Assembly (NCBI RefSeq): GCF_039555335.1
Contig: NC_092640.1
Coordinates: 27,437,446 to 27,501,445 of the forward strand
Reading direction: 5' to 3'
Source: Amphiura filiformis
Lineage: Eukaryota > Echinodermata > Ophiuroidea > Amphilepidida > Amphiuridae
Length of the DNA: 64,000 nucleotides
Made by a program: the position numbers and the translations under genes. Positions within the stretch are counted from its first letter, which is position 1. Every line of letters starts with the position of its first letter. The notes under the pieces are model-generated. The model worked only from the letters and a program-made list of their open reading frames with translations. It was not told the DNA's origin and did not search any database. Below are positions 6,290-52,849 of the stretch, in pieces.

Positions 6290-8430
6290 AACTGTCCGAT
6301 TCTTCTTCTTCTTCTTCTTCTTCTTCTGGCAACAAACTTCGAAATGCTTCTCCTCCTACATGTTTTCACACCTGCTACAATTACGTAACTTGCACATATG
6401 TACCGCCTATATCCAGTGCCCATATGGTGCAAACAGAATTGGGATCAAAGGTCATTAAAGGGGCATTTTCGGTATATAACCAAATATCTTCAAAATGCTT
6501 ATTCTGCCACATAAATGTTAATTTTTTAATAGCCACTCGTTAAAGTGCATATTTGAAGTAATTAAGCCATTTTTGCTAACATTTAGACACCTCAGGACAC
6601 CTTGTAGATATGAAGCACAGCTAGTACATAGCACAATGATCATTTACACTTACACATGTGCATCGGCTTTACCCAGTGCCCATACCTTGCACACAGAATT
6701 GGGGTCAAAGGTCATTAAGGGGGTAAAATCTTACAATTGCATTATCTGGACATCTGTAAGGAGTATGGGGCTCAAACTCGATACAATAAATCTCATGACC
6801 AGGGGAATATTTTGCGGGGGTCAGGTCAAAGGTCATGCAGAGGTCAAATTTTAGAAACGCATTTCCTGGACATCTGTAAGGGATACGGGGCTCAAACTTG
6901 GTGACAACAAACTTAATGATCAGGGAACATGTTGGAACACTTTGCAGGGGTCAGGTCAAAGGTTATCTGGGGTCAAATCTTTATAACTTCATTTTCTGGA
7001 TATCTGCAAGGGGTATGGGGCTCAAAAGGCTCCACAACAACAAACTTACTTGAGGTCAAATTTTGCACTATGATTATGTAATTGACCTGGGGATGAGGCT
7101 CTTGTGACCACATTTTGGGAACACTGTGCAAGGGTCATGTCAAAGGTCATCTGGGGTCAAATCGTAGAATTTCATTTTCTGGATATCTGTAAGAGGTACT
7201 GGGCTCAAACATGGTGACAACAAACCTCAAGACCAGGGGAACATTATGGAACATCATGCATAGGTCAGGTCAAAGGTCATCTGGGGTCAAATCTTAGAAT
7301 TGAATTTTTGGACATCTGTTAGGAGTACGGGACTCAAACTCGGTGAAAACAAACCCTATGACCAGGGGAGCATTTTGGAACATTTTGTAGGGGTCAGATA
7401 CCTCCACAACACCAACATGCCCCAGCTAGGTTTGTGGTCTATGACCACCATTTGCCACTAGTTCTTCTTCTTCTTCTTCTTCTTCTTCTTCTTCTTCTTC
7501 TTCTTCTTCTGGCAACAAACTTCAAAATGCTTCCCCTCCTACATGTTACACCCTACAATTACGTAACTTGCACATATGTATCGCCTATATCCAGTGCCCA
7601 TATGGTGCAAACAGAATTGGGATCAAAGGTCATTAAAGGGGCATTTTCGGTATATAACCAAATATCTTCAAAATGCTTCTTCTGCCACATATTACATAGC
7701 ACAATGACGTCACTTACACATGTGCATCGGCCCAGTGCCCATACCTTGCAGTGGGTCCATTACTTACAATTGCATATTATTACAAGGGGTATGGGGTTCA
7801 AACTCACTGACAACAAATATCACGACCAGTGGAACATTTTGCAGGGGTCAGGTCAAAGGTCATGCAGAGGTCAAATTTTAGAAATGCATTTTCGGGACAT
7901 CTGTAAGGGGTACGGGGTTCAAACTCATTGACAACAAACTTAATGACCAGGGGAACATTTTAGAACATTTTGCAGGGGTCAGGTCAAAGGTTATCTAGGG
8001 TCAAATCTTATAATTTTATTTTCTGGACATCTGTAAGGGGTATGGGGCTCAAACTCGGTGACAACAAATCTCATGAACAGGAGAACAGTTTGCAGGGGTC
8101 AGGTCAAAGGTCAAGCAGAGGTCAAATTTTCGAAATGCATTATCTGGACATCTGTAATGGGTATGGTTCAAACTCTGTGACAACAAACTTACTGACCAGG
8201 GGAACACTTTGGAACGCTGTGCAGAGGTCAGGTCAAAGGTTATCTGGGTCAAATCTTATTAATTTAATTTTCTAGGCATCTGTAAGGAGTATATGGGACT
8301 CAAACTCGGTGACAACAAACCTCATGCCCAGGGGAACATTTTTGGAACATTTTGCAGGGGTCAGATACCTCCAAAACACCAACATGCCCCAGCTAGGTTT
8401 GTGGTCTATGACCACCATTTGCCACTAGTT
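6290..8430. repeat. Duplicated 1.1-kb block with AGGTCA-rich minisatellite
   Basis: Two similar halves (about 6290-7437 and 7455-8430) each start with a (TTC)n tract and the same unique stretch (ggcaacaaacttc... gtgcccatatggtgc). Each continues with tandem units of roughly 110-130 bp that include ggggtcaggtcaaaggtcat, a gacatctgtaagg segment and ctcaaactcggtgacaacaaac. Both halves end at a shared ccccagctaggtttgtggtctatgaccaccatttgcc. A truncated piece of the unique stretch recurs at 10288-10400. No coding function is supported. Confidence 0.85.
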
Positions 8431-9525
8431 ATGTTTCTTACTTTATTGTTTCTTGCTTTGTTTTTATTTACAACATACGTCATTTATCTTTTGGGATAAA
8501 AGGTAGCCCTGAAAAGGGCCGTTTGGTTTGTGTTTGGTTCTGAAGTGAGTTTACTGTGCTGCTCTGCCCTCTGCCTCCTTTATTCTTGACATTACCATAT
8601 CATCACTAATACTTGCGAATGCAGCAGTAATACGTTTGCAAAGATCTTGGAGGCTAGCTGGTGGTCCTCGCTCATGGACGTCGCTTTGGATCAAAAGTTC
8701 TGACCCGATTGAAATAATTGTTGTGGTTTATTAAAGCTAACGATTGAAGGTTTCTTGACATACCAAAATACATTTGATCAGCTGTTCAGAAATAGGAGAA
8801 AAGAGGGCGCAATGATGGTTCTTTTTTTTTTTTTTGGGGGGTGACATCCTGTACTTCTTTAAAGCCTTGGGTCACTTACTAGCTGAGTTAGAGCCACAGT
8901 GAGTTACAGCCCGGGAGGGGACGGGTTCTTCAAAATATTTTGTACGGGGATGTGCCACGCAGACTTTCGGATGCTGACTTTCTCTATACCTACTTTTTGC
9001 TGTTTTTGACACCCATCAGTATACCAATTTTTCACCAAAAAGCACCCAAATTTGCCCTAATTGGGCACTTTTTATATGGATAGGTTTCTATACAAAAACG
9101 ATTATCTTATAAACCATCATGTGCACAGTTTCCACCTCGATACACCTGAGCACACATTTTTGTCCAAGGCTTCCAAGCCGAGAACAAGAAGCAATGAATG
9201 TCTCCACCACACTCTTTGATACACTACATGGTTGAGTGCATAGCAATGTAAGAGCTGTGGAGCTTCTAGCTGAAAAATGGGCCTCTTTGATTGTTTTTTG
9301 TCGAAACCTCAAGTGTTCACTTCATCCAATCAGAAATTATTTTTATATCAAACGAAAGCTAACACTTCCCCCTAAAAACACTTTTCGTCACTATACAGAT
9401 AACGCAATTCAATGTTACAGCAAGGCGAATGTGGAAAATTTGTTGAAAACTACATATCCAAGCACATTTTTTGACCAAAATGTAGGTTTTAAAAGTCAAA
9501 ACCTCATGTGTGAAAAGGCACACTA
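8431..9525. other. Intergenic; dispersed-repeat fragment at 8900-9065
   Basis: The stretch near 8920-9065 (ttcaaaatattttgtacggggatgtgccacgc and onward) has a diverged second copy at 49820-49965, so it is a dispersed repeat of unknown class. The rest shows no supported gene. Confidence 0.5.
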
Positions 9526-11632: not shown

Positions 11633-13480
11633 ACATACATACATACATTATAAATATTTATATAGCGCTGCTACATTTAGAACGTAGCGCTCAAAACAAA
11701 AAACACAAAACAAAGCAAAAGAAGAACATGAAGAAAATAAATAAATGAGAACTGCCTATGAAGGCTACAAAATCTATGGAAACAAGTGTGACTTTAGAAC
11801 CCTCTTGAAAATACCCACTGATTGTGATTCCCTGATACCAATTGGCAGTCTATTCCAGGTTCGAGGCGCAACATAGGAGAAGGTCCTGCGTTCAGCTGAC
11901 ATGAGTGTTTTGATTGTGTTGTGCTCTGTCAGGAGGGTGGTATCAGAAGCAGAACGCAGGCCTGCACGCGCAGGGCAGTGCAGGGAAACACAATCAGACA
12001 GGTACTCAGGAACACTCTTGGTGAGGCATTTAAGGGGGGGCAAACATAATGGGGTATGAACGTTTGGACATCGTTATTTTTGGGTTTCATTAGAGCACAT
12101 CAGACCCTATCGTCGCACTGCATTCTGAATACGAAGAATGTCATTCTGATATCAAATAATTTTGATTTTTGAAATTGCAATTTAATACACATTTTATGGC
12201 AAATCATTAAAAACTTGATATTTTAAATGATATTTAACAGTACTTGAAGTAAACTTTATAAATCTGATGATTTATACTTTCAAAGGGGCATGCAGGGGGG
12301 AACCCTCTCCCCGAAAACGCCACTGACTCATCAATTGAAAATTTTGACCTTTCGTATTGAAGATATGGATTTTTTTGAAAACACCAAAAAAAGACCTAGG
12401 TCTTTTTGGGAAAAAAATCCATATCTTCAATATGAAAGGTCAAAATTTTCAATTGACCGTCGGACTTTTCCTCCCTGCCCACAGGCTACACTTTAAGAAT
12501 ATATACATTAGATTTATATAATTTACTTTAGGACTGTTCATATATCAAAAACAAAGCAAAAAGAACATCAAATTTTTATAATTTGTCATAAAATTTGTAT
12601 TATATTGTGATTTTAAAAAATGAAAATATTATTTGATATCAGAAAGACATGCTTTCGTATTCAGAATAGCAATTCAGATAGGTCTGAGGTGCTCTCTGTC
12701 CCAGGAAAAAGCAGTCGAAACGCAATAAACGCTCATTTTAGATCCCTTAAAACACAGTGACTAAAACTTTGAAATTGATGCGCTCTTCAACAGGGAGCCA
12801 GTGTAACTGCTTTAAATACGGTGTGGCATGATCATATTTGAGGGCCTTACATATCAGCTTCGCAGCCCAATTCTGGATCCGTTGTAGTCTTTGAATGTCT
12901 GCTTTACAACAGCCAAGAAGCAGCCCATTGCCATAATCGATCTTGGAAAGGACAAGGGCTCTTATGACCAGATGACAAGTGTCATAATCCAAGTACCGAC
13001 GTATCCGGGAAATGTTGCGAAGCTGGTATGTAAGGTTAGAACAAAGAGTCTTGACGTGAATGGACATAGACATTTGACAGTAAAAAATAACCCCTAGGTT
13101 ACGCACAGAATCTGAAGGACAGATGGATTTGTCCCCAACCCTCAAAGCAACCGGTATCATTGAGCGCTTCAGGTGTGGAGTAGTGGTCACAAAAGCCTCA
13201 GTTTTGCTGTCATTAAGTTTCAGCATGTTCATTCTCATCCAAGCCTTAAGAGCATCAATGCAACGAGATAGATTATCTAAAGCAGCAGCAATGGATACCG
13301 GGTCTTTGGGATCAAAGCAGGTGTACAACTGTACATCATCTGCATACAAGTGGTAGGATAAGTTGAATGATTTGATGATACGACCAACTGGTAAAATATA
13401 CAAAGAAAACCCTGAAGGTCCGATGATTGAACCTTGAGGCAGGCCAAATTCGAGCTCAACAGGGTCAGAAAAAGTACCTA
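11633..13480 (-). pseudogene. L2-like LINE, 5'-truncated, inserted in element X
   Basis: On the minus strand, the segment 13403-12747 encodes an RT palm and thumb region. It has the YADD catalytic motif near its start (YHLYADDVQLY), then a KTEAF stretch and the typical SKIDYGNGLLLG and LHWLPVEERI motifs. The C-terminal end continues at 12043-11774 (KCLTKSVPEYLSD ... TWNRLPIGIRE). Between them lies a 713-bp TTAA hairpin MITE, and the frame is shifted by one base across the junction. The 3' end has gcgctatataaatatttataatgtatg and a (TATG)n tail near 11633. N-terminal domains are absent. It cannot be functional. Confidence 0.85.
12034..12746. mobile_element. TTAA hairpin MITE within the LINE
   Basis: TTAA flanks both ends (12030-12033 and 12747-12750), as for piggyBac or Kolobok insertion. 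The element is one long palindrome: the centre 12328-12470 pairs almost perfectly (caattgaaaattttgacctt ... reverse), and the outer arms share the 'gatatcaaataa' and 'attctgaatacga' blocks in inverse order. A second copy begins at 63832 and an isolated end occurs at 50715. The stop codon ending the upstream RT frame is made by the TTAA. Confidence 0.85.
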
Positions 13481-13638
13481 CTATGGTAGCCGTGCTTCGG
13501 GAAACGCGTTTTCAGTTAAGCCTGGTCTTACGACCTCTTAAGCCTTGAGGCTAGACAAGCCAACTGCTAAGCCACCCGTCGAGAAATTCGCCCTTAGTGG
13601 CCTATTTATAAGTGCAAATTCCATATGAGTGCCACTCC

Positions 13639-20612: not shown

Positions 20613-22528
20613 GTGGCGGTGGCGGTGGCGGTGGCGGTGGTAGTGGTAGTGGTGGTGGTGGTGGTGGTGCCCATTTTTTGATCATACCTTTTGGACCGTC
20701 TTTCTTGAAGCAGTTTACTATTTTACCAAATACTTCCGCTAGAGCAGGAATAGTCAGTGAATAAGCAGTGCTACTGTCTGTAGCACCTGCTCTTGTTAAC
20801 GCATTACGTCGACGTGGTGGTAGCAAGAATCGATCCACTCCTGAGGAATCTGTTGATAACTCAACGATTTTACCTGTGACCATTGCTCCAAGCCACTCTC
20901 TAACGTAGCTGCAAGAAAACAAGCAAACAAATTGATTTTGAAAACTCACAGAGTTTAATATACAGCGTGTCCCAAAAGTAACTTAACATTGTGAATTTGC
21001 CATATCTCAAATACTTCCTACTTCATACCAAAATGGAGAACATATTCACATAGATTGATCTTTTAGAATTATTTTGATACCAAAAACAGCAATATTGATG
21101 ACCTCTTGACCTTACTGTGCGACTGTACATATGTGTGTATCAAACCCACAAAAGCAAGCTCATATGTTTTTTGTTTAAGCACATGAATGATGTGCTTCCC
21201 TGATGAACAACAGAGTTGGCTCACTCACTGCACACGCTACATTTAGGTATTCACATTCATGGATTACTAACATGGCCTACCGTAAGCGTGACTGCTGTTT
21301 TAGATTATAATTAGGATATATTGACAATATTAAACTTTCCTTTAAAACAGTTGAAGTGAAGATGAATTTCCTATAGATCAACGGATTCAGATTCTTTGTC
21401 GAGACAAAGTCCGACAAACTCACTCAAGCAAAGTTTAGGGAACATTTTAATGTAAATTATGCACCCAGTCGAAATACAATCCAGCAACTAGTGCAAAAAT
21501 TCCTATCAACTGGATCTGTTCGATGATCTACCTCGGGCAGGACGTGGAAGAACAGGAAGATTGGCTACAAACATCGATGGCGAAAAGCCCAAGACGATCA
21601 GTACGTCGACTTTCAATGGAGAACAACGTACCGCGTACAACTGTTCATCGAATCCTCAGAAAAGATCTTAAGCAGTTTCCATATAAAATCCAGATAAAAC
21701 AGAAAATGAAGCAAATTAAACAAAAACAGATTTGAAAACGAATAAAAGTGGGTTTTACGGTACAGTAGATATCCTTTAATTTCATGCTAAAGGGTCATGA
21801 CCACATAGGCATGTTTGGTATCATAACATTTCTAAAAGAATTATCTACATACTGTGCAATTTTTGTAACAAAACTATTAACACAAAGCAAGTTATGGCCA
21901 ATTCACAATGTTAAGTTACTTTTGGGACACCCTGTACTTATACGAACTCGTAGGAGAAGATACTGGCATGACTAATATAATTAAATAAATCTCATCTGTA
22001 AGATCTATAGATAAAATAATAATGAATAAAAAAAAACCGATTTCATAATATATTTCATCATAAAAAGAATATAGGGACGCACCATTTGACTTCCAGAGGG
22101 TGGCCTTTCCCCACTATCACTGATGAAAATAACTTTCCACACCAACACTAAAAAAACTGTCCCAACTGTGTGTTCAATAATGCATGAAATTAAAAAAAAA
22201 CCACCTAGTGTTTAAAAACATTACCCCGACCTCAACTTCTACCCCCATGGAAGTCAAATGGCGCGTCACTGAAAACGTTTTCAAAATAAGGAATTGAAAG
22301 GAAACCGAAATGTTAGCTAACTGGTTAATCAACAATGCAGTCCTACCGTTCTTTTTTATCCGTGGCTTGGGCAATCTCTTCACAAAATTTTGGTTCGTCC
22401 CATTCCGCCATCTTTTCAAACAATCCAGTCTGAACGCCTAGTGCTACAGACAAACACAGATGACTGTCTGTGACCAATTGAGACATTCTCTTACAAAAGG
22501 CATCTTCTGTTTCTGCTGTTGACGCCAT
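16723..22528 (-). CDS. SAM-dependent methyltransferase, copy B (four exons, 374 aa)
   Basis: This is a complete gene on the minus strand: exons 22528-22347, 20908-20688, 19302-19177 and 17318-16723, all with GT-AG introns. Exon lengths 182/221/126 and phases equal those of copy C. The N-terminal part (MASTAETEDAF ... LFEKMAEWDEP) and exon 2 (REWLGAMVTGKIVE, LLPPRRRNAL) form the helical dimerisation/substrate domain of Rv2258c-like enzymes. Exon 4 holds the Rossmann domain (VLDIGCGTGATS, VLAVDTSDEA, FDLIFANDMVHD). The start was chosen because copy C shares MAS-x-ETEDAF, whereas the frame further upstream is not conserved. The final 12 residues (TGEFLDRSLSKP) and the stop come from transposon Y; copy C ends in Cys-Lys-Lys-Thr-stop. 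No internal lesion is seen. The substrate is unknown. Confidence 0.87.
17319..19176. other. Intron 3 of copy B with two hairpin MITEs
   Basis: The intron runs on the minus strand from the donor gtaggt at 19176 to the acceptor at 17319. It holds a palindromic MITE at about 18131-18345 (gctattcca ... aaatccacac, cccctgtggaagat inverted). A second hairpin lies at about 18580-18705 (ttttacacccaaataatgtgtcc ... inverted). G-runs at 19010-19030 are low complexity. No gene is seen in the intron. Confidence 0.7.
18131..18345. repeat. Palindromic MITE (ggctattcca termini)
   Basis: The arms gggctattccatttaaaatcc and the inverse of ggatttcaactggaatagtcc pair. Inside, cccctgtggaagat occurs twice in each direction. 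It is about 215 bp and non-coding. Confidence 0.7.
19177..19302 (-). CDS. Copy B exon 3
   Basis: This 126-bp exon encodes GVSYSAYSNLLWTS ... YKKHLVADIIPAVPGMTEAL. It is bounded by cag (acceptor, 19303-19305) and gtaggt (donor). Copy C has the same exon at 46167-46292 with identical length and phase, which confirms it despite its short size. Confidence 0.85.
20074..20273. other. Assembly gap (200 N)
   Basis: There are exactly 200 N, a conventional gap size, within intron 2 of methyltransferase B. Open frames of X residues over it have no meaning. The true length is unknown. Confidence 0.99.
20581..20670. repeat. (GAT)n/(GGT)n microsatellite next to the exon 2 donor of copy B
   Basis: The tract gatgat... 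then ggcggt... ggtggt lies just inside intron 2 of copy B. Read on the gene strand it is an (ACC)n tract 20 bp after the donor. Copy C has an (ACC)n tract in the same relative place (32694-32733). Confidence 0.9.
20688..20908 (-). CDS. Copy B exon 2
   Basis: This 221-bp exon (YVREWLGAMVTGKIVEL ... VNCFKKDGPKG) lies between acceptor ttgcag and donor gtatga. Tyr-Val-Arg-Glu-Trp-Leu and the LLPPRRR segment are conserved with copy C (32440-32660). A split Arg codon joins it to exon 1 (CG/C). Confidence 0.87.
20963..21934. mobile_element. Mariner-like element (decayed) in intron 1 of copy B
   Basis: The TIRs CAGCGTGTCCCAAAAGTAACTT and inverted CAGGGTGTCCCAAAAGTAACTT are flanked by TA (20961-20962, 21935-21936). 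The element is 972 bp, too short for a complete transposase with intact ends. It contains the N-terminal coding remnant described separately. Confidence 0.85.
21359..21735 (+). pseudogene. Transposase N-terminal remnant (mariner-related, HTH)
   Basis: Reading across two frames on the plus strand gives KLTQAKFREHFNVNYAPSRN, then TIQQLVQKF and STGSVR. After a frame change comes SPRRSVRRLSMENNVPRTTV, then HRILRKDLKQFPYKIQ. This is the tandem helix-turn-helix of the transposase type whose N-terminus is catalogued as DUF4817 in arthropods. The catalytic DDE/D part is missing. It is a frameshifted fossil. Confidence 0.75.
22347..22528 (-). CDS. Copy B exon 1 (start codon)
   Basis: The ATG at 22528-22526 opens MASTAETEDAFCKRMSQL ... 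CEEIAQATDKKE, and the exon ends at donor gtagga after 182 bp. Copy C (31840-32021) has the same length. The context aacATGgcg is shared by both copies. Confidence 0.87.
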
Positions 22529-22636
22529 GTTGCTGAAATTTGAAATAGATAAACATAAAGCATGGCGATTGGTTATAACTTGTTGGGGAGCGTGTTCTAA
22601 CTGATATGACACTCCTCTTTGGTGCACATTGGAATA
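22529..22636 (-). promoter_or_regulatory. Conserved upstream segment of copy B
   Basis: About 105 bp before the ATG are nearly identical to 31735-31839 upstream of copy C. They include tgtgcaccaaa, a CCAAT-type motif (ataaccaat) and tttcaaatttcag just before caacATG. The last motif looks like a splice acceptor for a 5' UTR intron. The segment is either proximal promoter plus leader or intron end plus leader; sequence alone cannot decide. Confidence 0.5.
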
Positions 22637-26386: not shown

Positions 26387-26782
26387 CAGAGGATGATTTA
26401 AGGAAGCCCCATCATGCACTGCAAACGTGTTATCACCAGAGTTTCAACTGCAACTTTACTTTTCAAATCCCATTGAATTCTGTGCAAAAGATGTTGTTTA
26501 AGAATTGTGCGTGTGTCATTATTACTTGGTCGATTTCAGATCTAAAGTGATGTATGCATGAAGGATAATTCACACCTTCTGTAGGTAACATAAAATGTGA
26601 AATCGACTAGCATTGTGAATGCGTTTTTATTGTAAATATATCAGTCCAAATTCAAATTTAACCATGGCCGTCAATGCAATGTGCGAGCAGTGTGGTGTCA
26701 TGTTCACTCACACAGCTGTGCTAACCGCAAGTCAACACAGTGGCGTGGTGGGAAGTGTTTAAATCATCCTCTGATCCCGAAT
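26378..26782. mobile_element. MITE family M9, copy 2
   Basis: The element spans 26387-26773 (387 bp) with the exact 9-bp duplication atcccgaat (26378-26386, 26774-26782). It is in inverse orientation to copy 1, with the same CAGAGGATGATTTAAG termini. The open frame 26326-26550 over it is not a gene. Confidence 0.9.
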
Positions 26783-27077
26783 GGAGCAACTTTAAATTTG
26801 ACCTGACCTTTAACCTCAGATGACCTTTGCGGTTTTGAACTTTATTTTATTTTATTTATTTCTTCTTTAACCTGGGACATGCAATCAGTGACCAGCACTG
26901 TTCTCCCTTGCTGCCCAGGATACAACACAGATAAACAACAAACATGAATTTAAGAGTATTTAAAAATATACATAAAAGTCATAAAATTAATACCATATAA
27001 ATTATACACATACCAGGTACAAGAAATTTAAATAACATATGATAATTACATTTACAATGTGCTACATAAAAGAGATA

Positions 27078-30000
27078 TTATTGCAAGTTAGTATATATGT
27101 TCTTGAAAACATTTGCATTGACAGGAAGGGATTTTGATGTTTCGGGAAAGATCATTCCAGGCCTTAGCACCCTGAACAGGAAAGTTCTCTTGCCAGTCTC
27201 AGTGCGCATCTTATTTATAACCAGATTCCCAGCGGTCGATGATCTGAGAGTATGATTGCTATAAGCATCAATACACTTGGTGAAAATATTGCACAGGTTA
27301 GGGGGTACCAGCCCCAAGACATTTAAAAACATTGAGACAGATATGATATTTACGACGATCAGAAAAAGTTTCCCAGTTTAGGGAATCAAAGACAAAATGA
27401 GTTGGAGTGCGCATTGGGACACCAATGATTGCTCTACCGAGACGTTTTTGATGGCGATCCAACCTGTTCAGGAGAGTTAAGCCTGCATTTGACCAAATTA
27501 GATCACAATAATCAACTTTAGGTAAAACAACAGATGTATACAACAACTTCAGGGTGTCAACAGCTAAAAACTTTCTCTGATACGGTAAAAAAAGACCAAT
27601 ATATTTATAAAGTGACATGCAGATTTTATCAATTTGGTGTTCCCAAGTTAACCGCTGATCAAAAATAATGCCAAGATACTTAAAATGTGGGACACATTCA
27701 AGGGGCTGATCTTTGATATGAACAGTAAGAGGAACAGAGGATGCAAGTTTACGAGCAGATCCAAACAGCATAGTTTTGGTTTTATTAACATTCAATGTGA
27801 GCCTATGTTGGTGAAGCCATTTAGCAACACTTTGCATACCAGAATTCAATACATTATTTACTTCATCAATGTTTTTACTGGCAAAGAAAATGGCAGTATC
27901 ATCAGCATAAAGGTTTATTTTGCAATTCTTGACAACTGTAGGGAGATTGTTGATATATATTGTAAATAAAAGAGGCCCCAGGATTGACCCCTGGGGTACC
28001 CCAAATGTCACAGGTGCGAGTTCAGAAAGTGAATTACCTAATTTGGTAGCCTGTTTTCTTTCACCCAAGTATGAGGAGAACCAGCGTAGTTCCAGTCCAC
28101 AAACACCAACACTCTGAAGCCTCGAGAGCAAGATCGGGTGATTGACCGTGTCAAAGGCCTTTTTCAGGTCTAAAAAAATGGCCCCCACATAACTACCACG
28201 ATCAATGTGATTTAAAATGTAATCTGTTACATCAACAAGAGTGGTGAGTGTTGAGTGTTTGGGTCTGAAACCACCCTGTTCAGGACATAACATGTTATTT
28301 TGTGACAAAAAAACATAAAATTGATCGTAGACAAGTCTTTCAAAGATCTTCATGATCACCGGAATAACAGAGATGGGCCTATAGTTGCTGGAGACATTAC
28401 GGGGCCCATCTTTATAGATAGGACTCACTCTACTTTGTTTCCAAACTGCAGGAACAACACCTGTCTGAAGGCTGAGATTAAAAATATGAGCAAGAGGTGT
28501 AACAAGAGCACTAGCACCAGCTTTCAGAAATTTAGTATTGACACCATCAAGACCAGTGGCCTTTTCAGTGGGAAGTGATCTAAGAATCTTTGAAATACTT
28601 TCTTCCGTAATAATATTAAAATTAAAACTAGCAACACAATTATTTGTCCTGGTTGGTAAAGGTAAAACATTTGTGTTGGTACCAAAATTATCATCCAATT
28701 TCTGCCCAATGGTGGAAAAGAACTTATTCATGACACTGGCAATTTCCATTTTATCACTGACAGTGTTATCTCCGTCAAGCATAGAGGAGATAGTTGACTC
28801 TGTGTTCCCAGGAAGCAGGGTTTTGATGGTTTTCCACAGCTTACGAGGATTATTCTGGTTGCTGGATATTGTATTACAAAAATAGTTTCTCTTTAAGATA
28901 TCAGCCATATTATTGAGTTTATTACGCAAAAACCGTGCCTGCTTCCAGTCATCAGGATGTTTAGATTTCTCTGCTTTAGTACGAGCAGAGAGGCATTTTC
29001 TACGAAATTCCAAGTACTCATTGGTAATCCAATTGGGTTGATTTTGATTGATCTTAATTCTTTTGATGGGAGCATGTGTCTCACAAACAGGGCGAAGTAG
29101 ACCAAGAAAAATATCCAAAGCTAAGTCAGGACAGCTTGCACAACTAACAGCTTGCCAAGGAACATCAATGAGGTCATTCAGAAACTCAGTCTCATCAAAA
29201 CGCCTGAATGATCTAGCCTCGATATAACGAGCATCACGTTTGACTCTACCAGCTTTCCTGGCAGCATAAATTATAGAATGATCACTGAGAAAACATGGGA
29301 TAACACCATTTTGATGGTACATTTCTGGTCTACTTGTCCAGATATGGTCAATATATGTTTGACTGTGATTTGTTATTCTTGTAGGATCTTTAGTGATTAG
29401 GTTCATATTATGATTCGACATTGTGTTCTGGAGCCTGGACCACTTAGACTTCTCAGCAGATGTTTTGGCATGCGAGTTACAATTAAAATCACCAAGGCAA
29501 ATCAGCTCAGCATGATTATTTCTGTTGTTAGAAGAGTGAATTTCTTGGAAAGCACTATCAAGGAGCTCAAAAAATTGGTCACAGTCCGGAGGCCTGTACA
29601 CAATGCCAACCATAATAGGTCTGGTAAAAGGGAGGGTCACCTTAAACCACATTCCTTCAATGGGAACATTGACATCAATGATGGAATATTGCAAACTTGA
29701 CCTGATATAAGCAGCAACTCCACCCCCATTTCTGTTTCTATCATTACGAATGAGATCATAACCACTTATTTGAAGTTCATTATCAGAGATATAATCATTA
29801 AGTTTGGTTTCATTCAAACCAAGTATGTCAGGTTTACAGTCATATGTAATTATCGAGAGTTCATGAACCTTAATATTCAGTGAGTTTATGTTTAGACACA
29901 TAAAACGAAGACCTTTTAGAGTATCAAAAATTTTAGTGTGATCATTATTGTCAACTTCAGAACATTTATAGTCCGATTGCAAGTCTTGAGTTGTCGTAGT

Positions 30001-30828
30001 ATTGCTCTGACTAGATGCATCAGTTGCAGTCATTCCATTTGTGGGCATCTGAGGTAGACAGTTGGTACATCTTCCTTGGGGTACAGGACGATTTTGGGAC
30101 CGGTACTCTCTCTTTTCAAGGCCAGAACATTTGAGATGGAGCGGTTTGCTACAAACTGAGCAGTGCGATCTCCGATGATTATTTTGAATTTTTCTGCTAC
30201 AGTTATTGCACTCGGTACGGGATTCGGTGGGACCAGGATTTGTTTCAATGTCCCCACTAAAGATATTTGAATCTTGTTTAATAGTTTTAGGTTGCGTTTG
30301 ATCCTGCGTTTGAGCAGGTAGACTAGTTATGTTCACATCTTGCACCAGTTCAGCATGTTCCATTGACCTTTTGACAATGTGAGTATTATTAAGGTTCCCT
30401 TGGTTGCGACGACGTTTAATTTGTGCGCCAGCTCGACATCCCCGGGTTACAGGGGGGAAGATTATCTTAAGATCTTTAATTGTTGACCAAGTGTCATTTG
30501 GCAGCCATTGATTTTGTTTGTTGTACTGAAGAAGTTTGTCTCGTGTGTATTTAATTTTTTGTATAACAGAGTTAGTACTAGACGCAGAGGTTTGAACATT
30601 TGCCTCATTGATATCATCAGGGCCTGGGTTGGACTGGATATCTCCACAACTAATTAACCCTATTTGGAAAGTTATTGTACTATTTGGATACAATAAAACC
30701 GGTTTCTTAACAAATTTGTCATGTTGTAGTATGTAGCTCATTGAAGAAGACTTTGAGTTCAGCAAAGTACAATGTTGACATCTCACACCTGAGAGTATCA
30801 GGGTAATTAACAGGTACTTGAGAAGCAT
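27078..30828 (-). CDS. LINE polyprotein: signal peptide-2A-2A-PHD-endonuclease-RT, one frameshift
   Basis: The single ORF starts at ATG 30828. Residues 1-18 are hydrophobic (MLLKYLLITLILSGVRC), like a signal peptide. A first 2A-like motif GDIQSNPGP ends at residue 70 and a second, GDIETNPGP, ends at 200. A C4HC3 PHD-like finger spans about 207-257 (C207, C210, C223, C226, H231, C234, C254, C257). The apurinic-type endonuclease (about 308-520) shows N313, E340, LGDFN at 445-449 and SDH at 515-517. The reverse transcriptase has LDLKKAFD (D887), GVPQGS (943-948) and YADD (974-977). The intact frame stops at 27298. The true C-terminus (LVPPNLCNIF ... to 27078) continues in another frame after a one-base change in a run of four C at 27312-27315. 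All catalytic residues are present. Confidence 0.92.
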
Positions 30829-31734: not shown

Positions 31735-31839
31735 TTCCAATGTGCACCAAAGGAGAGTGCCATATCAGTTAGACCACGCTACCCAACAAGTTATAACCAA
31801 TCATCATGCTTTAATTTATCTATTTCAAATTTCAGCAAC
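31735..31839 (+). promoter_or_regulatory. Conserved upstream segment of copy C
   Basis: This is the counterpart of the segment upstream of copy B, with the same ataaccaat motif and tttcaaatttcag directly before caacATG. A one-base difference shifts the frame upstream of the ATG between the two copies, which argues that this stretch is not translated. Confidence 0.5.
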
Positions 31840-32021
31840 ATGGCGTCAGCATCAGAAACAGAAGATGCCTTTACTAAGAGAATGTCTCAATTGGTGGGAG
31901 ACAGCCATCTGTGTTTGTCTGTAGCTTTAGGCGTCCAGACTGGACTGTTTGAAAAGATGGCGGAATGGGACGAACCAAAATCTTCTGAAGAGATTGCTCA
32001 AGCCACGGAGTCAAAAGAACG
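31840..32021 (+). CDS. Copy C exon 1
   Basis: It encodes MASASETEDAFTKRMSQL ... SEEIAQATESKE. The donor is gtagga after CG, the first two bases of an Arg codon. It is 182 bp, as in copy B. Confidence 0.88.
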
Positions 32022-35000
32022 GTAGGACTTCATTGTTGATTAACCAGTTAGCTAACATTTTGACTTCTTTTCAATTCCTTACTTAATTGAAAAAATTTTC
32101 AGTGACTCACCATTTGACTTCCGGGGAGGGGGAAAGTTAGGGTCGGGGCAAATTGTTCTTTGGTTTAACACTAGGTATTGCCCATTTTTTCAGTAATATT
32201 GGGGAAAGATCACCCCTGGATGTCAAATGGTGCGTCCTTATGTTCATTTTATGATGAAATATATTATGATATCATTTTTTATTCATTGATTATCTGTATA
32301 TCTTACAGCTGAGATGTATTTAATTTTATTAGTCTCAGCTTAAATGTTTCTGACAAAATAATGTCAGTATCGTCTACTTCGATTTCGTATAATATTAATG
32401 AGTTTTACAAAATCAATTTGTTTGCTTGTTTACATGCAGCTACGTTAGGGAGTGGCTTGGAGCAATGGTCACAGGCAAAATCGTTGAGTTATCAACAGAT
32501 TCCTCAGGAGTGGATCGATTCTTGCTACCACCACGTCGACGTAATGCATTAACAAGAGCAGGGTCTACAGATAGTAGCGCTGCTTATTCACTGACTATTC
32601 CTGCTCTGGCGGAAGTATTTGGGCAAATAGTAAACTGCTTCAAGAAAGACGGACCAAAAGGTATGATCAGATTGCACTTGCATAAATGGGCACCACCACC
32701 ACCACACCACCATCACCACCATCACCACCACTCCACAACCACACCACTACTACTCCAATTTTGTAAAATTTACCTCAATTTCCTGTGGTTTATCAAAAGT
32801 TAGCAACCTTTCCAGTGATCAGTCAACATTTAGCATGATTGCCCATTTTATTACATGTGACATTGGGCCTCCTGCTTGTTATCGTTGTTCAGTTTTATCA
32901 TCTTCGTAAATCTTTGTTAATCTGCTTCTTCCTCGTCTACTACTTTTTCTTCCTATTCTTTAGTCTTCGTCTTCTCTTTCTTTTTCTTTTCTTTTCTTTT
33001 ATACTTCATATCCCTTCTTCCTCCGCATCTCCAACTCTTCAGGTCTCTTAACATGCTTAAGAGCGGTTATTGCACCGCTAACTGGTGGACCGAGCTACGT
33101 GCACACTTCACTTCTAGGAGTACTAGACCCCTGGTTTTCATTTAATTGTATTTTTTTAAATTATTATTTCAAAATTGAAATTAATTAATTAACTTGATTA
33201 ATATAAATTAATTGACCCTTTTCCTAATACTAATAGCTCTTTATATTAATCTTCAAACTAAACTACTAGCGTCCAACGATACTTTTATTTGTAGTATTAG
33301 ATCAGTCCTATCATGCCTATAGTAGTCCAGGCAAACTAATTGATTTTTTAGGTAAAGGTCAAACAAATTGCAACAGAATTTTTTTCACCACAATGCATTT
33401 CTATAATGTCCCTAGAATGACATACTAAAAGTCCCTAAATATCCAAGTGGTGGAAATATGCCTAATTTGCATAAATCCAAAATGGCTTTTTTTTCACAGA
33501 TTTTTCACCTTATTTTGAATTTAACGCTCATCTTATATAACTTTTCAGGTATTTTAGATGCCTAAAATGCTTATTCCAGAATGGATAATCAATACATGTT
33601 TCACAAACTTGCCTAACGTCTCAATATGGGTGCCTTAATTTGCATAAATTTTGGGGCATTTTATATTGATTTGGTCATCATTCCCAGTTTACACAACGTT
33701 TGTGGTAATTTAAATACCTAAAGTGCACATTAATAGGATTAGTAAATTCGATGTATGTTTCACAAGTGTGCACCATGCCTTAATATGTGTACCCTAATTT
33801 GCATAAATCCATAATGGCCACCATTTGTAGTACATTTTGAACTTATTTAGTCATATTTATTCTCATATTACGTTGTTTTTTTGGAGTGATTCTTAAGCCT
33901 AAAATGTATGTTTCAGGATGGGTCATGTTAATATGTACTCCAAAATGTTTCATATGTCATAATCTGTGCCTTTATTACAAATGGCGGTCAGTTACGGACT
34001 TGTCATACTGACAATACCCTGATTTATTAATACAAAATATCACACAAAACCATGGCTATCATCCAGATTGGCTTAAAGTTATGTTGTATTCCTCAATATG
34101 ACAATCTTAGAATAAGCACTTATGTGGTAAAGTCATCTTCAGTAGCATCAATTTCAATGTCTGGTGGCGGCGAGCTGGTACAGCAAGTGCCACGGCACAC
34201 AGTGCAGGCTGTTGAACAAGGTAGACCATACTTTTGGCATGTTCAATTTTGTTTTCGCAGTCTTTCTTATATCCATATCTGATGATCTCAAGCAATGATT
34301 GTGGTGTTGGCGCTTACTCAGTATGTAATGGAAAATATTGGCGATCAACAATCTGCCAGCGCCAATCTTCTGGAAGCAAATTGTTTGCCTAACCCTTCCA
34401 CTCTAGTATTTGCTAGTAGACATACAGACTGTGGTACTTTGCGGCAGGCGGATGTTGGTGGTAATGTCAATGCTTCTACAACTTAGCGAGGTGCTAGTTG
34501 AGACTTTCACACACAATTCCCTCTACCTCTGATAATGTCCTTTTTAAGATGTTCTTCTGTTTGATTGAATACCTTGACATGTTCATAAAAGCATTCCTTT
34601 TAATCCTCGAGGGCTATACCCTCCCAAATTCCAAATAGACGGAATGTGGTGTCACAGCCAAGAACAGCATGGATTAAAAGAATGTGGTCACACAAGCTAT
34701 TTCACAAATTCACCTTCAACGTTTTGACGTTCCACTTTCTATGCTTCTTAGAGTTTTGCTTTGGCTCTGGTGCAAAGTTGATGTTATGTGCATTCAGTTC
34801 AGCATAGTAGATGAGTAGGACGAGGAGGTCAGTGTCATCAGTATCAATAGGTCTTGCAGACTCTACTGCTGTGGTGACTCAGGACATCGCATTGTGTCGT
34901 GCATAAAATGTAATACAACCAGTCATTTCCAGCTTGTCACTGAGGAGGTTGATGAAACATTGCTTGTTAACGTCGATGCAAGGAATTGATAACCATGTCA

Positions 35001-43016: not shown

Positions 43017-46000
43017 GAACCTACATAAATACAAAATTGGTCTTAATTTTGGAACTTTTGAATTTGCATTTTTCTTACATGACATACCTACCGCATTGTC
43101 TGTAATTTGTTCTAAAGAGGGCGTTTATTGAAAGTGAATTTTCAGTGAAAACATTTAAAATCAGGGTTAAATTTTCTGATGATGCTCATGTAGAAACGGA
43201 AGGGATTTATGACCGGTAATAGGCTTTAACGGACATAACACGTCGGGCATACGCTGGCGAAGTTACGTCATTTATCGGATTAATTACCATAGCAATAGGT
43301 GAAAACAATTTTGAACATTTCGCGCTGTACTACAAGCAGGTTGCACTCATCACCTGTATGTCTGCAATCATAGATTGAATACAATGCCGGTCTTTTCAAA
43401 GATACTAATCTTACAGGTGCAACTAATCAGCATGAATCACCTATTGCTATGGTAGTTAATCCGATTATTATGTAACTTCGCCAGCGTAGCGCTATTGCCG
43501 ACAAATGTGGACGCACTAAGGGATTAGCGGAAATATTTAATTCGATCGGACATAAGCCTAGATAAAATATTACCGGTAATAAGTGCATGTGTGAACACAG
43601 CTTCAAGCTTTTTTACTAATGCTATACATAAGTATAAGCTTATTATCCTCTTCAACAATAGGATTAAAGATTGGTGCTTGACTGGAATTTCGTGCTAGTG
43701 TCATTGGTTATTGTTAAAAGGCAATAAGGTGTGTAATTGCAATATTTCCTCTGAATAGGAAAGACTCTCTACATCGAACCATGGATGCTGGTGGTTCGAA
43801 TTAAGCCCGATCCTGACTCCACTTCGCAGCGGTATGCGATGCTGCGATGCTTTTCAAACATCTCAGCATCGCGCGATGAAATTAAAATGTACAGGTGGTA
43901 TCGGGCTTTAGGAGAATGTATCTTCCAAACCCAATTCGAAATGATGCGCTTGAGAATTCAACAATATAAATAATGGTAGCTCTATTATAATACACATTAA
44001 TGTTTTAAGCAGATAAAATTCCAAAATATAATACGTTTTCTGTCTTTGCTTGTCACGTGGTAGGCCTATGTTGAAGTTGCGATTATATTTTTAAATAAGT
44101 TTCAAATGAATAACAACAAGACAAGTGGCCGAGTGGTCTAAGGCGCTAGGCTCATAGAGTGCTAAGCCGTGCGCCGTGAGTTCGAACCCCGCCTCTGCCA
44201 AACTTTAAAAGAAGTAAAATTTTACTTTAATTTTAATTTCATATAAATGTGACTAGGAGAATTTATGTATGGCGTGGAGTGGTGTGATAGGGCATGTACT
44301 TTAACTGGCCGGCGCGGTCCGGTGACTAAGTCCGCTTTATTGGGACGTCTATCGACCATCGACGAGTAATGGGTAAGCCAGTGGGGGAGTATGCATTGTG
44401 TGTCCTAACTCATGGCAAGACTGCCAAGAGGAAACTCGGACGGCAACAAACCTTGTTCTGGAAAATACATCCAGTGTCCTTTGAGGGATATGGACAGCAT
44501 GCTGAGTCAAGGTTAACTATCAGCAATGGCTCAAGACCGTTGTAGCTGGGGAAACTTGTAGTCGCCTGCTCTGCAGCTGAAGGATGATGATCATGATGAT
44601 GAATCAGTATGAGAAGTCCGTAACTGGCCGCCATTTGTAATAAGGCACACAGATTATGGTATATGAAACATTTGGGATACATATTTTGAGATTACCCATC
44701 CTGAAACATGCATTTTAGGCATAACAATTACTCCAAAAGTTTTAATATGAGAATTATGAAAAAATAAGTCCAAAAATGATGGATTTATGCAAATTAGGGC
44801 ATACATATTAAGGCACGTTGCACACTTGTGAAACATACATAGAAATTACTGATCATAAAATGTGTGTTTTAGGTATTTAAATTACCACAAACGTTGTGTA
44901 TAGACTGGGAATGTTGACCAAATCAATATCCAATGTCCCAAAATTGGTGGCCATTTTGGATTTATGCAAATTAGGGCACACATATTGGCACGTTGCACAC
45001 TTGTGAAACATACATAGAAATTGCCAATTCTAAAATGTGCATTTTAGGTATTTAAATTACCACAAACGTTGCGTAGTGTAGACTGGGAATGATGACAAAA
45101 TCAATATAAAATGTCCTAAAATTGGCGGCCATTTTGGATTTATGCAAATTTATACACATTATAGAAATGCATTGTGGTAAAAAAAAATTCTGTTGCAATC
45201 TGTTTGAGGTCAACCATTATTTTGCCTGGACTATAGGCCCCTACATATAACCAATATTACGTATACACGATATTACTTTGGTGTCAAATATCACAGCATA
45301 GTACTGATCTGTGGCTACCATGGCTACTGTCAGATTAAAAGACTGGGGTCAATAAGTTCAGGCCAGGCCCAGAGGATGATTTAAGGAAGCCCCATAATGC
45401 ACTGCAAACGTGTTATCACTAGAGTTTCAACTGCCACTTTACTTTTCAAATCCCATTGAATTCTGTGCAAAAGATGTTGTTTAAGAAGTGTGCGTGTGTC
45501 ATTATTACTTGGTCAAGAACAAAAGTGATGTATGCATAAAGGATAATTCACACCTTCTGTAGGTAACATAAAATGTGAAATCGACTAGCATTTTGAATGC
45601 GTTTTTATTGTAAATATATCAGTCCAAATTCAAATTTAACCATGCCTGTCAATGCAAAGTGCGAGCAGTGGTGTCATGTTCACTCACACAGCTGTGCTAA
45701 CCGCAAGTCAACACAGTGGCGTGGTGGGAAGTGCTTAAATCATCCTCTGGGCCAGGCCAGGCCAGTCACAATGTGTCTCAATGGCTTCTCAATACAAAGG
45801 ACTTAACTTCCATCCATAAGTCACTTACATCTTTTGCCGTGGGAGGGGAGTAAAATGGACGCAACTTCAAAAGTATTAGGAGTAGAACCCCCGGTGTATT
45901 TTCATTGTATTTCTTACTGTTTTCTCCTTCATTTGATACCACTCAGGGGTTATAGCTTCGTGGCATTTCGAGATATGCCCATTTAAGACCAAAAGGTTAG

Positions 46001-51229: not shown

Positions 51230-52849
51230 CCCGCTAGTCATAAGGGTCGCTAGTCATAAGGATCGCTAGTCATAAGGGTCGTCAGTCATAAGGTTCACTA
51301 ATCATAATATAAAAAAAGGACCGCTAGTCATAAGGGTCAATAATCATAATATAAAAAAAGGACCGCTAATCATAATAGAAAGAAAGGCTCGCTAGTCATA
51401 ATACAAAAAAGGACCGCTAGTCATAACAGAAAAAAGGCTTGCTAGTCATAATAGAAAAAAAGGACCGCTAGTCATAATGCAAAAAGAGGTTCGCTAGTCA
51501 TAATCAAAAATAGGACCGCTAGTCATAATGAAAAAAATCACGGCCGCTAGTCATAATATAACAAAAGGACCGCCAGTCATAATAGAGAAACACGTTCGCT
51601 AGTCATAATATAAATTTAGGACCGCTAGTCATAATAAAAAAAGGACCGCTAATCATAATAAAAAAGGACCGCTAGGACCGTTAGTCATAATAAAAAGGAG
51701 CCTTAATAAAAAGTAAGAACTAGAGAGCGGTTAGTGCTTCTTTGCAGCCGTGCGGGGCAAACTATTTGGATATCTACATTTCGCAGTTAGTGGTCCTTTT
51801 TTTGTTTTTTAACATACTGTAGCAACCCCCAGCCAGCCCCATACCTCACTTCGGTTTGTAACTAATAAAAATTCTAGTTTCCGTGTTCTATGGTTTCAAA
51901 TATTAACGTTTTAATGATATGCTTTATTTTAAGGCACATATCTTAATATAACATGAATTAAGGGACCGTTCACAAACACTTGTTAGGGGGGAGCTTCATA
52001 CAAAAGGAGGGGGCCCTGAAAAAATGACCAAAAATCTTCCTGGGATATTTTACAATAACATTTAAAAATCATTTAAAAATATTGTTGTAGTGTGTTTCAT
52101 ACAAATATTTAAAAAAAAATCATGACATTTGTATAACCCGACATTTAATGTTATCAAATTGTTTTACTAAATAAAAAAGCTACCTAATTGAGAATAATAA
52201 TATTTGTATAATACCGTAGTTGAGGTCAAAGAGCATGCAGAGATCATCAAACAGCTCTAGTTCTAATTCTTTAGCTTAGCAGACCCCTTTCTCCTTCATG
52301 ACAAGCGATAAATTTTTTATTATGACTAGCGAACCTTCTATTGTATTATGGTTAGCATTCCTTTTTTTTTATTATGACTAGCGGTCCTTTTTTTATTATG
52401 ACTAGCGGTCCTAAATTCTGACTAGCGAACGTGTTTCTCTATTATGACTGGCGGTCCTTTTGTTATGTTATGACTAGCGGCCGTGAATTTTTTCATTATG
52501 ACTATCGGTCCTTTTTCTTGATTATGACTAGCGGACCTCTTTTTGCATTATGACTAGTGGTCCTCTTTTTCTATTATGACTAGCGAGCCTTTTTCTCTAT
52601 TATGACTAGCGGTCCTTTTTTTCTATTATGACTAGCGAGCCTTTTTTTTCTATTATGACTAGCGGTCCTCTTTTTCTATTATGACTAGCGAACCTTTTTT
52701 TCTATTTATGACTAGCGGGCCTTATGACTAATGAACCCTCTTTCTTATGACTAGCGAACCCTTTGTTTTATTTATGACTAGCGAACTCATGGTATAGGAA
52801 ACTACACGTTATGACTAGCTACCCTTATGACTAGCGACGTGTAACCGTT
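51230..52849. mobile_element. Foldback-type element with tandem-repeat arms, 1.62 kb
   Basis: The left arm (51230 to about 51715) is about 19 units of accgctagtcataat plus an A-rich spacer. The right arm (about 52300-52849) is the inverse (attatgactagcggtcc). The middle is about 580 bp and includes a fragment of the CCCAGCAAACAC repeat. The 9-bp flanks ctaataaca (51221-51229) and ctaatcaca (52850-52858) differ at one base. Arms of tandem repeats and a 9-bp duplication are the hallmarks of Drosophila Foldback elements. No coding sequence. Confidence 0.85.

Follow-up and report, generated by a model that had tools for sequence, protein, structure and literature searches.

Two 2A-like motifs in series behind a hydrophobic leader in the single-ORF polyprotein of an Amphiura filiformis LINE

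Overview

The minus-strand element at 27298-30828 of the window (the whole stretch of DNA analyzed here, 64 kb in length) is a LINE, and the N-terminal part of its single open reading frame (ORF) carries two 2A-like motifs in series, the first of which follows a hydrophobic, signal-like leader. With moderate confidence, we read the product as an APE-type LINE polyprotein made up of a leader, skip 1, a basic module, skip 2, and a finger/endonuclease/reverse transcriptase part, which would be split by 2A (StopGo) skipping. A leader paired with a 2A-like motif recurs across LINE lineages, and this pairing is a more interesting lead than the double-motif variant itself.

The element and its domains

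On the minus strand, the frame spans 30849-27298; the ATG at 30828 has an A at position -3 and is followed by an uninterrupted frame of 1176 codons in total. The N-terminus of the translation is MLLKYLLITLILSGVRCQHC. The features of the element are collected in Table 1.

Table 1. Features of the LINE copy, with positions in the window.
Feature	Position	Strand	Remarks
LINE open reading frame	27298..30828	-	1176 aa + stop; translated with the standard code
Hydrophobic signal-like leader	30778..30828	-	About residues 1-17 (MLLKYLLITLILSGVRC); putative leader end
Predicted product 1	30622..30828	-	Residues 1-69; predicted from the skip rule, Gly-Pro bond unmade
2A-like motif 1, GDIQSNPG/P	30619..30645	-	Residues 62-70
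Predicted product 2	30232..30621	-	Residues 70-199, basic module, pI 9.4
2A-like motif 2, GDIETNPG/P	30229..30255	-	Residues 192-200, immediately before the zinc finger
C4HC3 zinc finger, PHD-like	30058..30210	-	Residues 207-257
APE-type endonuclease domain	29278..29895	-	Residues 312-517; Pfam PF03372
Reverse transcriptase domain	27664..28392	-	Residues 813-1055; Pfam PF00078
C-terminal coding remnant past the stop, partly in another frame	27078..27300	-	Weak single alignments
Tail of short A/T-rich repeats (AAATA-like)	26841..26861	-	Probable 3' end of the element

An APE endonuclease is followed by a reverse transcriptase within one ORF, which is the arrangement that marks an APE-type LINE. 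Pfam recovers RVT_1 (E 1.9e-37) and Exo_endo_phos (E 4.8e-13) in the 1176-residue protein, and a PDB search matches it to LINE-1 ORF2p structures (E 5.5e-21). The original prediction of a LINE polyprotein is borne out; ahead of the endonuclease and reverse transcriptase lies a zinc finger.

The finger, called “PHD” in the original prediction, is best described as PHD-like. Its C4HC3 spacing agrees with the name, as does its homology (E 1e-8 for residues 200-280, with the query cut at residue 200) to a comparator locus described below, L010, whose own finger clears the Pfam cut-off for PHD. The window finger, however, misses that cut-off (PHD E 0.026) and scores best as FYVE (E 6e-6), with all nine of the listed families below their curated cut-offs. 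The 130-residue middle module has no Pfam match and no significant match in the comparator loci or the PDB. In the reverse transcriptase tree, which holds no CR1 reference elements, the window element falls in no starred group.

The 3' end and the state of the copy

The 1176-residue frame ends early, a point that was absent from the original prediction. In the relatives that match through the frame end (L016, L024, L039, L059, and L060), the ORF goes on for about 80-195 residues further. In the window, LINE-like C-terminal sequence carries on in one other frame, starting at about 27300, and more of it stands in the first frame, starting at about 27186; the relatives give weak single alignments to the other-frame piece (best E 0.05), and some of their alignments (L020, L024) continue in the first frame across stop codons. 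Judging from these remnants, the window copy seems to have shifted out of the reading frame and back into it close to the C-terminus, through either true mutation or sequencing error.

Beyond the remnant lies a short-repeat, A/T-rich tail of the kind expected at the 3' end of a LINE, and the element probably ends there. No second copy of the element was found within the 64-kb window, where the element matches only one further stretch, a LINE fragment with 24% identity; this fragment, at 12750-13574 (-), is a piece of a second, distant LINE reverse transcriptase.

Several other repeats share the window. A dispersed repeat of about 350-390 bases is present in three copies that are 88-95% identical (26387-26773, 45370-45749, and 727-1071), one of which adjoins the LINE 3' tail, just beyond it. 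On the two sides of the LINE, at 31735-32729 (+) and 20630-22634 (-), exon-like stretches of a single gene are present as two inverted copies with about 89-90% identity; the product of this gene looks methyltransferase-like. An intron-like stretch of one of these gene copies holds an insert of about 1 kb (20960-21940) that resembles a mariner-like DNA transposon, flanked by inverted repeats of about 30 bases as judged by eye. Degenerate tandem repeats lie at 51232-52838, which also has inverted copies, and at 6703-8443.

Comparator LINE loci

A search of species-representative prokaryote assemblies with the reverse transcriptase pattern GVPQGSxLGPLLF returned 20 contigs (L003-L022). Because these contigs encode LINE reverse transcriptases, we read them as eukaryote contamination, and the comparator loci are probably animal host DNA in prokaryote assemblies; three of the 20 carry titles that refer to a symbiont of Bathymodiolus brooksi, a mussel. 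In the 16 genomes with those contigs, there were 54 matching places and six places with a 2A core. From these, 15 stretches were added to give 35 loci; of the 54 places, those on another ten contigs, where matches were weak or partial, were left out.

A single 2A-like motif on the LINE strand is present in 12 of the 35 loci (L008, L010, L012, L016, L017, L018, L023, L024, L037, L059, L060, and L061), which is a lower bound because many of the remaining 23 either lack the N-terminal part or have it out of frame. The L008 motif sits in an upstream ORF of its own, and the L018 motif in a frame unjoined to the endonuclease-reverse transcriptase frame. Two motifs in series were found in none of these 12 LINEs, in agreement with the earlier remark that such an arrangement would be less usual. 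L061 has two tandem zinc fingers akin to that of the window LINE after its 2A (L061:3789-4412), and its 2A core has Thr where Val or Ile is usual.

The loci with 2A-like motifs occupy at least four parts of the reverse transcriptase tree that are separated by starred branches. On this tree the 2A label requires nine changes, five of them forced, a number that is inflated by missing N-termini; 95 of 500 shuffles were as low, and the clustering is not significant.

Relatives were not found in viral contigs by either the whole-protein search or the LINE reverse transcriptase pattern, nor in prokaryote genomes by whole-protein patterns. When the search was widened, two of 83 genomes in the family of G007 matched (G007 included), as did three of 84 in the phylum of G004, all of which were previously known. 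The one partial match gained in this way was in G066, where a looser motif pattern found nothing.

The two 2A-like motifs

Translation from the ATG at 30828 confirms both GDIQSNPGP at residues 62-70 and GDIETNPGP at residues 192-200, as had been predicted. In the six frames of the 64-kb window NPGP occurs at these two sites only, and a degenerate DNA pattern for the 2A core has exactly two matches in the window and none in 100 dinucleotide shuffles. A chance origin of the two motifs is all but excluded.

The 2A/StopGo core reads (D/G/C/N)(V/I)ExNPGP. Motif 2 matches it exactly, and motif 1 departs from it with Q at p14. This Gln had been pointed out in the original prediction, and the departure from the core is real, but it is a lesser objection than it seemed: the comparators have Ser (L010) or His (L017 and L024) at p14, a non-Glu residue in three of 12, and E14Q mutants of 2A have 56% or 26% activity, as cited in Li et al. 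2026 (PMC12846837). The passages of that paper that bear on p14 give >95% activity for a natural His variant and place Q at p14 among the variants under its threshold. The Gln codon is a single base away from one for Glu, and in a copy with an apparent C-terminal frameshift this residue could be a private mutation.

The sequence ahead of each core should be considered as well. In the 12-residue stretch upstream of the core, the comparators have KD values of 0.86 to 2.96; motif 1 (KD 1.31) lies inside this range, and motif 2 (KD -0.87) lies below all 12 comparators and is the most polar among the 14 LINE motifs scored. Motif 1 is a Gln core in a LINE-type context, and motif 2 is a canonical core in a polar context; given that polar stretch, motif 2 may be the weaker site by context. 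Because 2A activity depends strongly on the upstream context and several different contexts are functional, according to the relevant part of PMC12846837, the letters alone do not decide whether either site works.

Whole-protein alignments to L010 and L024 set in immediately ahead of motif 2, with residues 188-189, and extend across the finger, so motif 2 lies at the place of the single 2A of these loci, before the finger. The skip site of motif 1 lies 69 residues after the Met, compared with 83-110 in the ten comparators whose 5' end is closed, and motif 1 seems to stand to its leader much as the comparators' only 2A stands to theirs. A recent tandem duplication of 2A was considered and is ruled out: the seven residues common to both motifs use different synonymous codons in every case, and therefore the event was not recent, or the motifs are of separate origin.

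The leader

The most hydrophobic 11-mer of the whole protein is residues 2-12 (KD 2.35), which upholds the prediction of a hydrophobic leader ahead of motif 1. The leader is not, however, a peculiarity of the window element, since a hydrophobic stretch near the start recurs in eight of the ten other 2A LINEs with closed 5' ends.

A stretch with KD11 ≥1.9 falls within the first 40 residues of nine of 11 2A LINEs (the window element counted) versus none of ten loci without 2A (Fisher P 2.2e-4), where the KD thresholds were chosen after inspection of the data, the ten loci represent nine distinct elements (L004 and L013 are the same element, both counted), and related 2A elements (L024 with L010, L012 with L059) are not independent. 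The count leaves out two 2A loci, L018 (open 5' end, uncertain first Met, KD 1.61) and L037 (no Met before the motif), neither of which would have added a leader. From the set without 2A it omits L003, L007, L015, L020, L021, L022, L039, L041, and L062, whose first Met lies past residue 312, and four open frames (L011, L063, L064, and L066); L021 does have a KD of 2.56, but its Met sits within the endonuclease.

A stricter measure, a stretch with KD11 ≥2.0 that starts in the first 17 residues, is found in eight of 11 2A LINEs versus 26 of 212 ATG-started frames of the window. The window is AT-rich, and KD 2.0 is attained somewhere within the first 40 residues by 47 of its 212 ATG-started frames. 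For L012 and L059, which are among the 11 2A LINEs, the hydrophobic stretch comes only at residues 43-53. For the leader segment, dN/dS was 0.29, 0.35, 0.54, and 0.68 in the four comparator pairs, out of five, for which it was computable, with dS near saturation. Hydrophobic leaders with a single 2A skip site 85-110 residues after the Met are seen in L008, L010, L016, L023, L024, L060, and L061, which belong to several reverse transcriptase lineages.

How the polyprotein might work

In the layout that we propose, the leader and a short peptide (residues 1-69) would be followed by skip 1, the module (residues 70-199), skip 2, and, from residue 200, the finger, endonuclease, and reverse transcriptase. 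The leader would steer the nascent chain to the endoplasmic reticulum (ER). With skip 1 at the peptidyl-transferase centre, this chain would be 69 residues long; the exit tunnel is given as 30-40 residues, and the tunnel with the translocon as 65-70, in the pertinent part of De Felipe et al. 2010 (PMC2978324), and on these figures the leader would have just emerged at skip 1.

Skip 1 would then free the leader peptide, and what follows would be made as cytosolic proteins that start with proline, whereas chains that fail skip 1 would remain joined to the leader and enter the secretory route. There is a precedent in the sea urchin NLR leader, for which a skip-dead mutant in HeLa cells led to the secretory route when skipping failed, as the section of Roulston et al. 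2016 (PMC4981915) on that construct describes; by this analogy, the products may divide between a secreted and a cytosolic fate. By the account in the same part of De Felipe et al. 2010 (PMC2978324), 2A can be inhibited when the chain upstream of it is translocating, so skipping in cells could be lowered.

Skip 2 would separate the basic module from the enzymes; the module may be a small ORF1-like nucleic-acid binder, although this is a guess. The other 2A LINEs in our set mostly have a leader, one 2A, and then a finger or endonuclease, whereas the window element has an extra module with its own 2A. In the simplest history, the known layout of a leader and one 2A would have gained a module, some 130 residues long, with a 2A at its end or beside it.

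Weighing the alternatives

The alternative that deserves most attention is that only one site works, with either motif 1 or motif 2 a relic, and that there are two products, as in other 2A LINEs; we consider this a substantial possibility, if short of a probable one. Each motif does have one weak half (the Gln core or the polar context), the comparators offer 0 of 12 cases with two motifs, and the window copy appears damaged elsewhere, yet both motifs keep NPGP, and the fact that their seven shared residues have no codon in common suggests retention at the protein level until recently. The Gln also weighs less against motif 1 when three of 12 comparators lack Glu at p14. That the motifs are functionless chance matches is, in our judgment, extremely improbable. 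The core pattern does occur alone in a very large viral collection (viral_contigs), with two matches in contigs whose frames hold no LINE (one match falls within an open frame), and L037 has an extra NPGP without the rest of the core in a 93-codon frame on the opposite strand. In a protein of such composition, however, the expected count of GD[IV][EQ]xNPGP is 2.4e-7, and here there are two in one frame, of which motif 2 aligns with the 2A of other LINEs.

It should also be asked whether the leader is an ER signal at all. Reverse transcriptases and PHD-like fingers are expected to act in the nucleus, and translation might be cytosolic throughout, with a hydrophobic start that is incidental or serves the RNP and a motif 1 that trims off a short N-terminal peptide. 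Hydrophobic starts are frequent enough among the ATG-started frames of the window to allow for this, but we consider it rather unlikely given that leader and 2A are paired across several LINE lineages. The distances point the same way, since 46-89 residues separate the end of the hydrophobic stretch from the skip site, versus a reach of 30 residues for the sequence that affects 2A in the relevant passage of PMC2978324.

Relation to known systems

The reading that we prefer, a polyprotein split at both sites behind an ER-directed leader, draws on parts that are already known: 2A in LINEs, single-ORF LINEs with a PHD, and leader plus 2A in sea urchin NLRs. Odon is said to have reported in 2013 a 2A-like sequence in the N-terminal part of LINE ORFs, upstream of the endonuclease and reverse transcriptase. 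The window element has the same N-terminal 2A and differs from those LINEs by its two serial motifs and the 130-residue module.

Single-ORF subgroups of CR1 and L2 with an N-terminal PHD are described in the main text of Metcalfe and Casane 2014 (PMC4120745). The window LINE is alike in having one ORF with a finger before the endonuclease, and adds a leader and two 2A before the finger; a word search of that main text gave no match for “2A-like,” “signal peptide,” or “transmembrane.”

In the sea urchin NLR leader, one oligopeptide serves as both signal and 2A, as set out in the corresponding part of Roulston et al. 2016 (PMC4981915). Both systems have an N-terminal leader and 2A, and the partition between cytosol and secretory route described there is only proposed here. 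The NLR signal and 2A form one peptide of 26 residues on an immune receptor, whereas in the window LINE, a retrotransposon, about 45 residues lie between them and there is a second 2A downstream. With the leader (1-17) thus apart from motif 1 (62-70), the element does not have a “2A signal sequence” of the NLR type, although a similar working is possible.

Picornaviruses offer a likeness of another sort. In the portion of Luke et al. 2024 (PMC11512398) that deals with polyproteins with several 2A(NPGP) sites, the number of sites is altered by insertions and deletions, and the serial sites are, as here, about 50-150 residues apart, with the sequences between them lacking database relatives. Those are viral polyproteins, however, and that portion describes no signal-like leader before the first site.

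Neither two 2A sites in one LINE nor a leader that regularly accompanies LINE 2A was found in a full-text literature search, which is weak evidence given that it reached mostly titles and the starts of abstracts, with most subscription papers outside it.

What the finding would mean

Natural 2A sequences behind signal leaders inform on skipping at the translocon, which is relevant to co-expression vectors. For LINEs themselves, the finding bears on why some elements without a separate ORF1 carry 2A sites. We suggest, tentatively and as something that is rather doubtful at present, that many animal LINE lineages share, as a general device, a leader with a 2A about 70-110 residues after the Met; this device would bring the mRNA to the ER membrane and, by a skip timed to the emergence of the leader, free the replicase to the cytosol, and the window LINE would add a second skip and a third product. 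If leader and 2A are a standing pair, then membrane targeting becomes a testable step of the LINE life cycle, and serial 2A sites, if they work as proposed, would be a way for a LINE to gain proteins without a second ORF.
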